Shown here piece by piece: positions 32,412 through 38,779 of a stretch of 55,843 nt of DNA. The translations under genes were made by a program, and so were the position numbers. The number at the start of each line of letters is the position of its first letter. The first letter of the stretch is position 1. Under the pieces are notes generated by a model, which was not told the DNA's origin, made no database searches, and worked only from the letters and a program-made list of their open reading frames with translations. The DNA is taken from assembly GCA_002839645.1 (NCBI GenBank), contig PGYL01000024.1, forward strand, positions 1-55,843. The letters are read 5' to 3'. Origin of the DNA: Methanomicrobiales archaeon HGW-Methanomicrobiales-2. Lineage in GTDB: Archaea > Halobacteriota > Methanomicrobia > Methanomicrobiales > Methanoculleaceae.

Positions 32412-33105
32412 CTACGCGGCCTTGCGCAGAATCTTTTGCATGACGTTAAACGGTGTAAAGAGGTGCTCCACCTCTCTTGCCAGGTACTCGGTCTTGCCGA
32501 TGACATAGTAACCGTCGACGGCAAGTGCAGAGTAAAAAAGGTGCGTAAGATCGTTCTTCTGCTTCTCGGTGAAGTAGATGGTGACGTTTCTGCAGGTGAC
32601 GACGTCGAGGTAGCGCGAGATGGGAGCACCCGACATCAGGTCGTGCTGCCGGAACTTGACGAGGTCCTTGATATGGGGACGGACCTCGAACGTACCGTCT
32701 TCGTGGCAGATAAAGTGTTTGCGGATCTTCTTCTCGTCCACATTCTCGAGCGCCTTCCTGTCATAGACCCCGGCCGCGGCTTTCTGCAGCACTACGGTGT
32801 CGTTATCGGTTGCATATATCGTTACGTTGACGTCTTTATGGAGTGCCAAGTATCTCCCGTCGTATCGCTTCGAAGACTTCCGGATCGCGGAAAAATTTGG
32901 TGACGTTGATGGTGAGAGCGTTTCTGAGCAGATCGAGTTCCTGCGGGTTCGCGAGGAGGTACTTATGGTAAGCCTCGAAATCTGCGGTGTCTGTCAGGCG
33001 CATCCGGGAGAGGATGCGCCGTTTGATGTAGTCCTCCTTATAATTCGAGCACTTGATCCTGACCAGTCTCTCGATGCTCTTCTGGAGCGACATAAATGCA
33101 TCCAT
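32412..33105 (-). pseudogene. cheR: CheR chemoreceptor methyltransferase, internal deletion and frameshift
   Basis: CheR methylates receptor glutamates using SAM. The first ~89 codons (from ATG 33105) encode the CheR N-terminal helices, ending in NVTKFFRDPEVFEAIRREIL, then meet a stop at 32836-32838. In the next frame the C-terminal methyltransferase part resumes as LALHKDVNVTIYATD and continues normally (VTCRNVTIYFT, then GYYVIGKTEYL) to 32412. The intervening ~30 residues, which should carry the SAM-binding motif I (GCSTGEEPYS-type), are absent. This is a ~100-base deletion with frame loss at about 32845-32856, not merely a frameshift. No active enzyme can result. It is last in the ParA-receptor-CheW operon. 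Confidence 0.8.
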
Positions 33106-33134
33106 GGGGTAATCTACTCTCACCGGGTGTTGAT

Positions 33135-33614
33135 TTACGGAGCGTTCTGATAGCATCCGAGGTCGCTGATCACTTTCTGGACGTCGAGCCAGATGATAAG
33201 GGTCTTTGTCTTCTCGTCTTCTTTGTCCCCTATCTTGATGATTGCTTTGACATAATTGCTGATGGATGACGTGATGCCGTCGTTGATACGTTCGATCTGC
33301 TCGTTACGGATTGAAATGACGCTGTGAACGTCATCGACGATGATCCCTACGTTCGACCCGCTTGCCACATCCGGCATCAGCACGACGATCTTTTTGTTCT
33401 CGGCTTCTCCGGATTCAGGGAGCCCGAGGAGGTCTCGGAGGTCGATAATGTTTGTTATCTCGCCTCGCAGGTTGATGATACCCGCAAGGTATTCGGGAGC
33501 ACGGGGAAGGGGAGTGATCGGCATCATCTCCACGATCTCTCGTGCTATCTGGATATCCAGTGCGTAGTGCTCCTTCCCGAGCTGGAACTCTACCACATCT
33601 ATGGATGCTGCCAT
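33135..33614 (-). CDS. cheW: CheW chemotaxis coupling protein
   Basis: A scaffold protein that links receptors to the CheA kinase. The 159-residue sequence has the CheW SH3-like fold: VVEFQLGKEHYALDI, PLPRAPEYLAGIINLRGEI with the conserved N-L-R-G-x-I motif, then DLRDLLGL and GIIVDDVHSVISI. All hallmark residues for receptor and CheA contact regions are visible. It starts 12 bases after the receptor stop and is followed by the cheR remnant. No cheA gene lies in the window, so its kinase partner is encoded elsewhere or is absent. Confidence 0.93.
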   Translation of the reverse strand: MAASIDVVEFQLGKEHYALDIQIAREIVEMMPITPLPRAPEYLAGIINLRGEITNIIDLRDLLGLPESGEAENKKIVVLMPDVASGSNVGIIVDDVHSVISIRNEQIERINDGITSSISNYVKAIIKIGDKEDEKTKTLIIWLDVQKVISDLGCYQNAP

Positions 33615-33626
33615 CTTCTCCTCCAG

Positions 33627-36494
33627 TTAGTTAATCTTGAACTGTTTCATCACTGACTGGAGCTGTTCGGCCATACCTGCCAGTTCGTGCGACGCACTCC
33701 CGACTTCCTCGGTTGATGCGCTGACCTCTTCTGCGAGTGCCGCCATATCCTCGGTCCGGTCCAGGCTCTCCTTGGTCATGTGGGTGGACTGGTCCATCTT
33801 CTGCATGACATTGTTGGTGGAGCCCGCCTGGTCTTCGGTGGCCTTCGTGATCTCGGTGATACCGTGGGCGACTACTTCGACGCCGTTGACGATCCGGTTT
33901 AAGCCCTCGATGACCTTGTTGACGCTCTCGATGCCTGCCTGGATCTCCTGGTGGGACGCCTGCATCGAGCCTGCGGTCTTGTCGGTGCTCGCCTGGATCG
34001 TTCTGATCAGGTCCTCGATATCCTGGCTCGCCCGCTTGGACTCCCCGGCAAGATTTCTGATCTCGCCTGCAACCACGGCAAATCCGCGGCCGTGCTCCCC
34101 GGCGCGGGCGGCCTCGATTGCTGCGTTTAACGCAAGGAGGTTGGTCTGATTGGCGATATCGGTGATCAGCTTGACGATGTTGTTGATCTCCCTCATCTGG
34201 CTGTTGAGGGTGCTGATCTCGTCCACGGTCTGTTTGGAGATCTCCTCGACGAGCTGCATCTTCTTTGCTGCGACTTCACCGAGAGAGGCAGCATTGTCTC
34301 CCTCCTTCGACGCCTTCGAGGCCTGTTCCATGACCTCTTGCGACGTGCTTGCGATCTCCTCGATGGACGCCGAGAGATCGTTGATATCCGTTCCGATCTC
34401 CTCGATCTTCTCGAGCTGGCGTCGTGCATCCTCCGACGACTGCTGCGTCGAGGTGGCGACCTGCTCGGTGGCCCGGATGATCTCGTCGGTACTCTTGCTG
34501 ACCTCCTTTGTGGTCATATCTACCTGGTGGGCTGCTTTTGCCACGTCCGCGAGGAGTGCGCGAATAGCAGTCAATGAGGCGTTGTAATCGCTCTTGACTT
34601 CATGGAGAGGGTCGCCTGCCTCTGCGTCCACAAACGCCGTCAGGTCGCCCTTTGCCATGGCGGCGAGTGCGGTCCCGAGTTCCCGGGCGCTCTCTGCGAG
34701 TCTCTCGCTCTCTTTCTTTGCGGTCTCCATTAGTTCCCGGATCTGGTCCTCTCTCTCCCGCTGCTCGGTCCAGTCGTTCCAGACGTAGAAGGCCATCTCG
34801 ATATCGCCCTTCGCATCCAGGATCGGGATGGCGTTCAAGGTGAGGTACTTCCTTACACCGTCGGGCCACTTGACCATGACGTCGGTCCGTGCGAGTTTCT
34901 TCGTTTCGTAACAGGCGTAGAAGTGGTCGCCGCCGATGATGGTGATGTCGTAGTCGTAGAGCTTCTTCGCGATGGTCTCTTCCCGCGTCCCCCGCCACAT
35001 CCGGGCATACTCTTCGTTGATGTCGATCCGGCTCTTGTCCGCGCGGAGCGTCGCGATTGCAAGCGGGTTCTGTTTGATCATCGCATCCACCCGATGCTCG
35101 GTCTTCTTGACTTCTTCCTTCTCCTCCTGGAGGTTGGTCCAGTCGTTCCAGACGTAGAAGGCCATCTCGATGTCGCCCTTCGCATCCAGGATCGGGATGG
35201 CGTTCAAGGTGAGGTACTTCTTCACGCCGTCGGGCCACTTGACCATGACGTCGGTCTTTGCGGGCTTCTTCGTCTCGTAGCAGGCGTAGAAGTGGTCGCC
35301 GCCGATGACCGTGATGTCGTAGTCGTAGAGTTTCTTCGCGATGGTCTCTTCCCGCGTTCCCCGCCACATCCGGGCATACTCTTCGTTGATGTCGATCCGG
35401 CTCTTGTCCGCGCGGAGGGTTGCGATCGCAAGCGGGTTTAACTTGATCATCGTGTCTATGCGATGCTGCATCCTCCGGATCTCGTCCTCTTCCTTCCGCT
35501 TTTCAGTGACATCGTTATAGACGATCAGTATCCCGGTCAGCTCGTTCTTCTCGTTTAAAAGCGGGATCCCGTGTTGTTCCAGGATATAGGTGCCGGAGGG
35601 GAACTCAACCGTCACTTCACCGTAAACCCTTATCTTATCGGTGAGCAACTTCTTGATCCCTTCTCCTTTCTGGGCGTGGACCTTGAAGTCCCGGAGGGTC
35701 ATCGTGACGATACGTGACTGATTGATGCCGGTTAACTGGAGGTATGCCTCGTTGGCCGTGAGGATCTTCATCCCGGTATCGACGACCAGCATGGGCATCG
35801 GGTTCTTCTGGACGATCGTCTCGGACTGCCGCTGCAGTTCGGCAATATTCTCCATCTGGACCTTGATCTCTTCCTCCCCCTCCCGCTGTTTGGTGAGATC
35901 GTTGTAGACGATGAGGACGCTCTCGACTGCATTTTCCTTATCCAGAAGCGGGATGCCATACTGCTCGAGCGTATGGGTGCCCGAGGGCAGTTCGACGATG
36001 ACTTCCGCATACGCACGCTTCTTCTCCTGGATCGCCTGCCGGAGGCCGGAACCTTTCTGCGACGTTATTTTGAAGTCTCTGAGGCTCCTGCCGAGCATCT
36101 GGTCCATCGGGATCCCGCTCATCTCCGCATAAGCAGCGTTTGCCACAGTTACTTTGAACTGCGGATCGACGACCAGCATGGGCATCGGGTTCTGCTCGAT
36201 GATCATATCGGATCCCTTCAGAAGCGCTCTGGCTTCTTCCAGCCGGCGCCTGAGGGCCTGCTTCTCCTCCTGCTTCTTCTCAAGCAGCGCGTTGATCGAG
36301 GCGGCCAGCGGCCGGAATTCCTCTGAAATGCCAGCAAGGTCGATCTTTGCGGAGTTGTCGCCGCCAAGCCCCGCATTGAGTGCAGCCTCGATCGCCTCGG
36401 GGAGTATCACCGGCGCCTGTTTCTGTGCCTGTCCAGTCGTTCCCGGCACGATCGGCCCGGTAAATAGTGCTTTCCTTCCAGGTTTATCGATCAT
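33627..36494 (-). CDS. soluble chemoreceptor with four PAS domains
   Basis: A methyl-accepting chemotaxis protein of 955 residues with no membrane helix, so cytoplasmic. Residues ~55-95 are coiled coil. PAS1 is ~95-205 and PAS2 ~225-335, a related pair ([10 protein letters not shown] in both). PAS3 ~348-452 and PAS4 ~471-575 are a nearly identical second pair. A HAMP-like linker follows (~600-650), then the signalling hairpin with tip [20 protein letters not shown] and flanking TSQEVMEQ / [10 protein letters not shown] helices. The ATG overlaps the ParA stop by one base (TAATG). It probably senses a cytosolic signal or redox state; the ligand is unknown. Confidence 0.93.
34767..35467. repeat. 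tandem duplication inside the receptor gene
   Basis: Two copies of ~332 bases, 34767-35098 and 35136-35467, are offset by 369 bases (123 codons) and nearly identical at the DNA level. They encode PAS3 and PAS4 of the receptor. The unit preserves frame, so the duplication added a whole PAS domain. Confidence 0.9.
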
Positions 36495-37378
36495 TAATAC
36501 ACATCCTCATCATGTTTCTCGTCTCGTTCCAGAAGTGCAGTTGCTATTGCCCGGTATTCCCTGCCGGCGTCACTCTCGGGTGCGTAATGGGAGATGGGAA
36601 GCCCCCGTTGCTGTGTCTCGTAGATTGCAGGTGAGTAGGGGACTGTGAATACCTGCTTGAACGCTTTTTTGACCTCGGACTCAAACGCCTTCAGCCGCGC
36701 CCTCTCCCTCTCCTCTTCTGCGGAGGGGCCGGCTGAAAAGATCCGTTTCAGGAAGAGTGCAAGACCGCCCGTTCCGGCCGACGGGTCGCCCGATCCCTTC
36801 CAGCGGGTCAGAATGGCGAAATCTGCGGCGACGTCTTCTCCGAGCATCTCTCTGATGTCGCCAAAGACTGTTGACAGTGCTTCCATGCCTCTGAGGGCGA
36901 AGGTGCCCGGGTCGAGGGTGACAATGGTATGGTCCGCTGCGACGAGGCCGTTGATGACGAACTGGCCCATGCTCGGGGGCGTATCGATCAGGATGAAGTC
37001 GTAGGTATCCCTCATTGGGGCGAGCGCCTCCCTGAGCAGCCCTGCCCGGTCCTCGATACCGTAGAGGTAGGGCTCAACCCCCACAAGGTCCAGGGTTGCC
37101 GGAGCCAGGTCGACTCCTGCTGCCGTGGGGACGATCACATCGTTTATTGCGATGTCGGGAAAGCCCTCAAAGACATTCATAAAAACGTCATACATGCTCA
37201 GTTCGAGGGTCTCGGGGTTGACCCCGAGACCCGTGGTGGCATTGGCCTGCGGGTCGCAGTCTACTACCAGAACGCGTTTTCCGTCTTTCTGGAGATATCC
37301 TGCAATGTTGAGGCACGACGTCGTCTTTCCTGTGCCACCCTTATGGTGGGCGAACGCTACGATTGTAATATCCAGCAC
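36494..37378 (-). CDS. ParA/MinD-family ATPase associated with chemoreceptor operon
   Basis: A 294-residue ParA-like ATPase. The deviant Walker A motif is KGGTGKTT at residues 13-20, [15 protein letters not shown] is the A' motif, and [11 protein letters not shown] the Walker B region. It lacks the MinD amphipathic tail as far as I can see. It is first in the operon and overlaps the receptor start (TAATG), so the products are made in fixed proportion. In Rhodobacter and Vibrio, ParA-type proteins (PpfA, ParC) position chemoreceptor clusters; the same role is inferred here. The start is GTG 37378. The upstream 221 bases carry only promoter-like A/T-rich sequence. Confidence 0.88.
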
Positions 37379-37599: not shown

Positions 37600-38298
37600 T
37601 CAGCGCCAGAGGCTGCTACCTGTGCGGCTTGCTACGGGGTCCCCAACCTCGGGGTCTGCTGCATCCCGGACTCGCTCTACACGTTCGGCGATGGATGGGC
37701 AATGGTCGGGATTGGAATAAAAAAGCCCGGAGATCATCTCCGGAAGATAACCGGACCCCGTGCGGCGTGGGGTCGACGTCCCGGCCAGCAGGCCGGAGAG
37801 GAGGTTCTGGAGGAGGGCGCCGGGATCTCTGGTCCGGTAGCAACACCTCATCGCATCTGCCGCGTATCGGTCGGCGGTGAACTCTTCGTCGCACATGCGG
37901 CAATAATATGTCCGGTAGGCGAAGAAGATCGTCAGGAGGAGGAGGGCAATGAAGAAGAACTTTGTACCGCCAGGACCCCCTTCCTGCAGGGACGGATGCC
38001 CAAAGAGCATAAGGCAGAGAAGAACCGGGAGGGCCGGGAGGCCAGAGAGGAAGGAAGAGCCTTCTTTAGCATGCCCCTCTTCGTGGAGCAGAACGAACCG
38101 GAGTGTGTCGTCGCTGGCCCGGGAGAGGGTTCTCTCGTAGAACGAACGCCGGTAACGGATGCAGTTGAGCGCCGGGCATCCCCGCAGGGAGACTGTGAAG
38201 GTGCATCTCACCAGCCTCCTCTTGCGGTCGATCAGCCCCTTCTCCTGGAGTTCCCGGAAAATCCGGTACAGGCGGGAATCCCGGTCTGCTGTATTCAT
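37600..38298 (-). CDS. M48-like membrane zinc metalloprotease
   Basis: A 232-residue membrane protein. LLHEEGHAKEG contains an HExxH zinc-binding motif, and CDEEFTADRYAADAM provides the downstream Glu ligand of the M48/HtpX type. Two hydrophobic helices lie between (PALPVLLCLMLFG and KFFFIALLLLTIFFAY). A Cys pair (YYCRMCDE) precedes the third ligand. The N-terminal ~60 residues look like a small helical domain. It is shorter than HtpX (~290), so it may be a reduced or distant member. The start is ATG 38298, with A/T-rich TTATAATTT ~20 bases upstream and no Shine-Dalgarno; longer in-frame starts are not supported. Confidence 0.75.
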   Translation of the reverse strand: MNTADRDSRLYRIFRELQEKGLIDRKRRLVRCTFTVSLRGCPALNCIRYRRSFYERTLSRASDDTLRFVLLHEEGHAKEGSSFLSGLPALPVLLCLMLFGHPSLQEGGPGGTKFFFIALLLLTIFFAYRTYYCRMCDEEFTADRYAADAMRCCYRTRDPGALLQNLLSGLLAGTSTPRRTGSGYLPEMISGLFYSNPDHCPSIAERVERVRDAADPEVGDPVASRTGSSLWR

Positions 38299-38779
38299 TC
38301 TAACTAAATTATAATAATTTGCATATATTAAATGTTGCTCTGAAGTGGAATGTCGGCTATTCTGTAATTTACCGATTCCACCCGTACCAATCCCGGGACA
38401 GCGGGATCCCTGCGGCTGGGTACCGGCCAGATCCGCTGCAGCACGGCCCCTCTCTGTCGGCAGCTCCGGCTGCCTTATGATGTGTCCCGGATGTCCGGGC
38501 TCCTGCCGCTCCACCGGCCCCCTGTCCGGAAGAACGGATCCGGACGGGTTTTTCTCACCTCTCCGGAGCGATCTCTGTGAGTCCTGTCTGGCCTGGTACG
38601 GTTCTCCTGTATCGGCCCGGGCTCTGAAACATTTGCAATGCCCGTCTTTTTCACAATATATTAATAATAGCAGCCAAAATTGTGAATGAACAGAGTGGAG
38701 GTGAATTTATAGGACCGGAGAGTTCACATGGCCCGTGCTCGTGCAGGTACGGCATGCGGGTCTCCGGTACTCTGAGCAA
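38299..38779. other. 481 bp intergenic stretch with an inverted repeat
   Basis: A/T-rich next to the M48-like start, GC-rich in the middle. TTCACAAT (38650-38657) and ATTGTGAA (38679-38686) form a perfect inverted repeat around an A/T-rich TATA-like centre, about 100 bases upstream of the lipoprotein gene, and could be an operator. An open frame of 114 codons on + (38345-38689) is unusually Cys-rich but has no recognisable domain or ribosome site. Confidence 0.45.

Follow-up and report, generated by a model that had tools for sequence, protein, structure and literature searches.

ParA-type ATPases are known to position chemoreceptor arrays in several organisms. In Rhodobacter sphaeroides, the ParA-like ATPase PpfA is encoded beside the soluble receptor TlpT without a ParB (PMC3964821, PMC5706961, PMC2829493), and its binding partner is the N-terminus of TlpT (PMC3964821). 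In Vibrio, the partner of ParC is ParP, in which an N-terminal ParC-binding part is joined to a CheW-like AIF domain (PMC5706961). In the archaeon Haloferax volcanii, MinD4 and MinD2 position both arrays and archaella (PMC11588486). ParA homologues are common in the che operons of bacteria, being recorded in 77 species out of a surveyed set of 206 that included Methanoregula boonei (PMC2829493), and little is known of what the archaeal ParA/MinD ATPases do (PMC10241942). The literature searched yielded no description of a Soj-type, receptor-linked archaeal system or of the N-terminal tag reported below, nor of an array-positioning system in hydrogenotrophic methanogens. ParA-type positioning of arrays is the known part of the present finding, and the archaeal Soj-type receptor-linked variant with its tag appears to be the new part.

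This study analyzed a window of 55,843 nucleotides (the whole stretch of DNA under consideration, contig PGYL01000024.1) from the 2.78 Mb, 99.5% complete genome of Methanomicrobiales archaeon HGW-Methanomicrobiales-2. One operon in it probably encodes a ParA-driven system that would position and partition a cytoplasmic chemoreceptor array, a reading based on gene content and protein sequence. Its likeness to PpfA/TlpT, which is drawn from the published descriptions of that pair and not from sequence alignment, lies in a ParA-like ATPase gene placed in a che operon beside a soluble receptor, without parB; further, as the receptor N-terminus is the ParA partner there, the basic N-terminal tag of the receptor is the candidate partner here. 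Unlike PpfA/TlpT, the present system is archaeal, is linked to an archaellum che system, and has a PAS-rich receptor, a fixed GRKALF tag that is able to move to a CheW fusion, and an insertion of 30–50 aa in ParA. In the three bacterial plasmid che operons examined (two from Leisingera and one from Sinorhizobium), no ParA was found.

The operon and its Soj-type ATPase

All four genes lie on the minus strand at the places assigned to them in a preliminary description of this DNA, as profile matches and coordinates confirmed. The parA gene (36494–37378) has a GTG start and encodes 294 aa matching AAA_31/ParA (E=4.6e-47); it overlaps the receptor gene (33627–36494) by exactly one base, in TAATG. 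The receptor, of 955 aa, consists of a basic N-terminal tag, a linker, four PAS-type repeats, a HAMP-like linker, and an MCP signalling domain (33780–34277; MCPsignal, 5.8e-46). It is cytoplasmic, with no transmembrane segment and a maximal 19-residue hydropathy of 0.98 vs 3.05 for the membrane receptor of the same genome. These two are the only MCPs in the whole genome, and the window receptor is the only soluble one. After a spacing of 12 bp follows cheW (33135–33614; 159 aa, 2.8e-33) and then a broken cheR (32412–33105). By sequence, the operon thus joins a Soj-type ParA to a soluble PAS receptor by translational coupling and adds CheW and, in the relatives, CheR.

The ATPase is of the Soj type and not MinD, both by sequence and by fold. 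Its best solved relatives in phmmer/hmmsearch searches of the PDB were ParA/Soj proteins, and Foldseek with the AlphaFold (AF2) model (mean pLDDT 89.8) gave Soj/ParA at E~1e-21, McdA at 1e-16, and MinD at 1e-15 or weaker. The protein carries a deviant Walker motif, given as an 11-residue stretch, and ten residues of this deviant Walker A, of the KGGxGKT(T) type, are invariant in 37 family members. In the tree, the archaeal proteins form one family distinct from bacterial Soj (100/100). The system shares with Soj/Spo0J (ParA/ParB) the fold and the Walker A type, and the basic activating peptide of that ParB has a G-R/K...A-L-F/I pattern; unlike that pair, the present genome encodes no ParB, and the proposed cargo is a receptor array. 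No ParB_N protein was found in the whole genome, and none among the identified neighbours of parA. Haloferax MinD4 and MinD2 are likewise archaeal ATPases of the ParA/MinD superfamily, needed to place chemosensory arrays and archaella; unlike these MinD-type proteins, the ATPase described here is Soj-type and shares an operon with a receptor, and no ortholog of it was found in most other members of the phylum sampled.

A further character of the family is the variable insertion of 30–50 aa that follows LTRW in ParA and contains a recurring basic amphipathic segment. In the window, the short amphipathic basic helix LALFLKRIF occupies ParA residues 206–214 (36737–36763, minus strand) within this family-specific insertion. 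The segment is kept in an otherwise variable region and could be a contact site for membrane or DNA.

The N-terminal tag and its changing carrier proteins

The N-terminus of the ParA-linked receptor, given over 13 residues, contains the candidate ParA-activating tag at residues 4–13 (36456–36485, minus strand). In every complete ParA locus examined, one operon protein begins with a basic tag of the consensus (K/R)-x-G-R-K-A-L-F, with GRKAVF and GRKTLF as variants. When 36 operons were aligned on the tag, G, R, and L were present in all 36, F in 35, A in 32, and K in 30, counts to which the search pattern itself contributes in part; the K or R two residues before the G, to which this does not apply, was present in 33/36. 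The sequence past the G that follows the tag is not conserved in these operons. The loose form of the tag was found at the start of a downstream protein in 64/70 ParA entries, the pattern having been refined on the very loci in which it was counted, and in 2/598 bacterial ORFs when their N-terminal 40 residues were searched as background. The six entries without it comprise GRKAVF (L020), GRKTLF (L029), a truncated start with TGRKALF (L171), and three contig ends, which stop before the second receptor.

The distribution of the tag across genomes follows that of ParA. The exact PGRKALF DNA pattern occurred in 66/199 genomes of the order, all of them ParA-positive (66 with and 38 without the pattern), vs 0/95 ParA-negative genomes (p=7e-26), and a reversed-pattern control gave 0/199. 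The matches share the strand of parA and begin between tens of bp and ~4 kb downstream of it, except four off-operon matches (G080, G079, G043, G076), which are near or in unrelated genes and were dismissed as chance. In the phylum sample, the pattern was found in 45 genomes, of which 42 have ParA and three do not (G297, G507, G365); the reversed control matched four genomes, a number similar to the three ParA-less matches.

The protein that carries the tag differs among lineages. In Methanoculleus, Methanofollis, and others, it is the PAS receptor directly after parA, and in the Methanoregula loci with two receptors (L039, L042, L043, L174, L176) it is the second and not the first. In nine other loci (L161–L163, L165–L170), the tag stands on a protein of 537–845 aa with a C-terminal CheW domain and no MCP domain; most of these fusions contain PAS domains, L164 is similar, and where an MCP lies beside the tagged fusion (L163, L165, L168), it has no tag. 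Outside the order, the tag was found on a HAMP-array receptor in family f10 and on a bare receptor of 392 aa in f32. As the tag occurs on several receptor classes and on CheW fusions, it therefore follows ParA and not any receptor family. On the best ParA tree, the cargo changed at least twice, although a single origin is also conceivable, since the tree supports the family but not a number of changes.

The archaeal family thus shows both known layouts, namely the TlpT-like tag on a receptor and the ParP-like tag on a CheW-domain protein. Relatives such as L161–L170 resemble Vibrio ParC/ParP in carrying the tag on a protein with a C-terminal CheW domain, although their CheW fusions, unlike ParP, contain PAS domains, and the tag in the window is on the receptor; a ParP-like partner with an N-terminal ParA-binding part and a CheW-like AIF domain was not found in the window.

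Several findings in the literature bear on the function of such a tag: ParA/MinD ATPases are activated by short basic N-terminal peptides, and Myxococcus ParB binds through hydrophobic contacts and needs one arginine in order to activate (PMC7993993; PMC13170346). The ParB N-termini at the bacterial loci examined follow LG[RK]G[LI]x(A/S)L(I/F), for example GLGRGLDALI and ALGKGLKALI. They share with GRKALF a G-R/K ... A-L-hydrophobic pattern, which, for a short motif compared by eye, is a resemblance and not homology. The tag is most likely a ParA-activating peptide, which would both bind the ATPase and stimulate it. The analogy with PpfA/TlpT is strengthened, since a conserved N-terminal tag follows ParA.

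Genomic context: kinase, cheR, and distribution

The preliminary description had called the operon one without CheA or CheY, apparently dependent on a kinase encoded elsewhere. The first point is true of the operon but not of the genome, and the second is borne out: a genome-wide search for CheA, CheY, and CheB located the kinase on contig C66, in a cheF-cheY-cheB-cheA-cheC-cheD cluster adjoining archaellum genes (a T2SSE ATPase, a KaiC-like ATPase, and an archaellin-domain protein). Receptor, CheW, and CheR genes are all missing from the C66 cluster; of these parts, the window operon has the MCP signalling domain and CheW, and the third, CheR, is broken here and intact in relatives. The separation of kinase and parA holds in this genome but not in some relatives: a cheY-B-A-C-D cluster lies ~3 kb upstream of parA in L042–L044 and directly downstream of the parA-receptor pair in L187, and a kinase cluster is also close to parA in L173. 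With these parts absent from C66 and two MCPs in the genome as a whole, the archaellum system on C66 most likely draws its receptor and CheW from the window operon, a view supported by the proximity of the same che cluster to parA in relatives and by the 16 of 39 CheA-ParA pairs on a common contig that are within 30 kb of each other. A second system, on contig C29, consists of a double CheW, a Cache-HAMP membrane receptor, a CheA-receiver hybrid, and histidine kinases.

The cheR gene was previously described as a remnant. It is indeed disrupted, being split over two frames (32836–33156 and 32412–32849, corresponding to CheR_N and the CheR SAM domain), with its start at 33105 set by comparison with relatives; the disruption is one recent lesion, not a general feature of the operon, as relatives have an intact cheR of 262–299 aa. 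Compared with the nearest intact copy (L011), a single frameshifting deletion of 101 bp at 32848/32849 takes out 35 residues, SAM motif I, and the S-adenosylmethionine-binding stretch of 19 residues is gone. cheR is thus a member of the conserved operon, and its break here reflects either a single event or an error of assembly. That the break arose in sequencing or assembly, with the operon intact in the organism, is a serious possibility that we rate at somewhat less than even: the 101 bp are the sole lesion, with no further stops and with DNA identities of 91% and 88% to L011 on its two sides, and the relatives carry intact copies, although the genes on either side keep intact reading frames. 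Just one further CheR is encoded in the genome, as part of a CheB-CheR-PAS fusion of 1005 aa on contig C12.

ParA orthologs were identified in 104/199 Methanomicrobiales genomes at E<=1e-50, and a sample of 393 genomes from the phylum was searched at E<=1e-45. The gene order parA-receptor(-CheW)-cheR is conserved across the order. Outside it, ParA was found in the phylum sample only in family f10, at 51–55% identity in the search, and in one genome provisionally assigned to f32. The f10 genomes may represent ANME archaea, as suggested by multiheme cytochrome genes near the locus; the f32 genome is 73% complete, and its copy is on a contig of high GC content. CheA was present in 97/104 ParA-positive vs 36/95 ParA-negative genomes of the order (Fisher p=9e-18). 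Of the 133 CheA-positive genomes, 36 (~27%) have no such ParA, and ParA is therefore dispensable for chemotaxis.

The preliminary description had named two observations that would speak against its reading, a parA not linked to receptors in relatives and a second che operon with its own ParA, and both were checked. parA lies with receptor and/or CheW-domain genes in the related genomes examined, both across the order and in the two outside lineages, and a genome-wide search for a second complete che operon with its own ParA found none, the genome having three ParA-type proteins, of which the other two are 28–30% identical to this one and are on other contigs.

A proposed positioning mechanism and its alternatives

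Based on this evidence, the positioning system may work as follows. The receptor and CheW would build arrays with CheA of the archaellum-linked C66 cluster, and ParA-ATP dimers, bound to the nucleoid or the membrane, would use the tag to capture the array. ATP hydrolysis would then be stimulated by the tag, in the way that Soj is activated by the ParB N-terminus and, as has been proposed, PpfA by that of TlpT. Cycles of capture and release could distribute the array, leaving one in each daughter cell or bringing it close to the archaella. In such a mechanism, the tag would be a portable module, with either a receptor or a CheW-domain adaptor as its carrier.

Where ParA acts can be read differently. 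It might position the array at the membrane or the pole, in the manner of MinD or ParC and not over the nucleoid, with the amphipathic helix as the anchor; the retention of the basic segment within the variable insertion and the polar positioning of arrays and archaella by Haloferax MinD4 (PMC11588486) point in this direction, but the closest solved relatives in sequence and fold are the DNA-binding Soj/ParA proteins and not MinD, and the helix is internal and of low confidence in the model, so that we consider this reading rather unlikely, at roughly one chance in four. A portable GRKALF tag moving between receptor classes and a CheW adaptor, combined with a ParA that acts through its internal helix on the membrane and not the nucleoid, would be a third design beside PpfA/TlpT and MinD4; this combination is put forward as a slightly more doubtful idea still.

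A different role of ParA altogether is less probable. The ATPase could act on signalling, using ATP to regulate, for instance, array assembly or the activity of CheA while bound through the same tag, and the coupling of array formation and localisation by Vibrio ParP/ParC indicates that such roles can overlap (PMC5706961), but the match of the basic N-terminal tag to ATPase-activating peptides makes this improbable. We know of no Soj-type ParA that is a signalling enzyme. Least probable is that ParA segregates a chromosome or plasmid and merely lies beside chemotaxis genes: its Soj fold group would permit this, but the tag on array proteins tracks ParA, and a chromosome-segregation role was rejected on account of the absence of ParB from the genome and from the identified neighbours of parA and of the conserved coupling to receptor and CheW genes.

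The preferred reading, positioning and partition of a cytoplasmic array by ParA, would give one archaeal ParA a specific cargo, a partner protein, and a candidate interface of ten residues in hydrogenotrophic methanogens. The same tag recurs with one ParA while the protein that bears it changes, a domain swap made by nature against which the modularity of ParA activators can be judged. For the organism itself, the data suggest that steering by the archaellum relies on just one soluble PAS receptor.

Other chemosensory genes of the genome

A second chemosensory system of the same genome (contig C29, 5915-14547 of locus L009) comprised a double CheW, a Cache-HAMP membrane receptor and a CheA fused to a receiver, together with a receiver-kinase and a PAS kinase, and neither CheB nor CheR was seen adjoining it. 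The sole intact CheR domain in the genome lay within a 1005 aa CheB-CheR-PAS fusion on contig C12 (3737-6757 of L094). On contig C66, an ORF similar to TnpB-type transposases (1030-2208 of L010) was located ~8 kb from the archaellum-linked che cluster.

ParA insertion, diverged members and upstream gene

Family alignment A2 revealed a family-specific insertion of 30–50 aa in the operon's ParA, inside which lies a basic amphipathic segment (36737-36763, minus strand); this segment resembles a membrane-targeting helix, yet it is internal in the protein. The most diverged ParA members (~40% identity) were those of L161 and L162 in genus g35, where PAS-CheW fusions bear the basic N-terminal tag as GRRGLF/GRRALF.

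An M48-like peptidase gene (37600-38514, minus strand) lies directly upstream of parA on the same strand. It was retained in most Methanoculleus loci with sufficient flank, and none was seen at parA in loci outside Methanoculleus.

A full che gene set that includes parA in a genome outside the order

Outside Methanomicrobiales, genome G391 (73% complete) carried parA, a bare MCP, cheY, cheB and cheA in one run on a high-GC contig, which is possibly contamination. With cheC and cheD, which are probably also present, the run makes up an entire che operon that has a ParA of its own.
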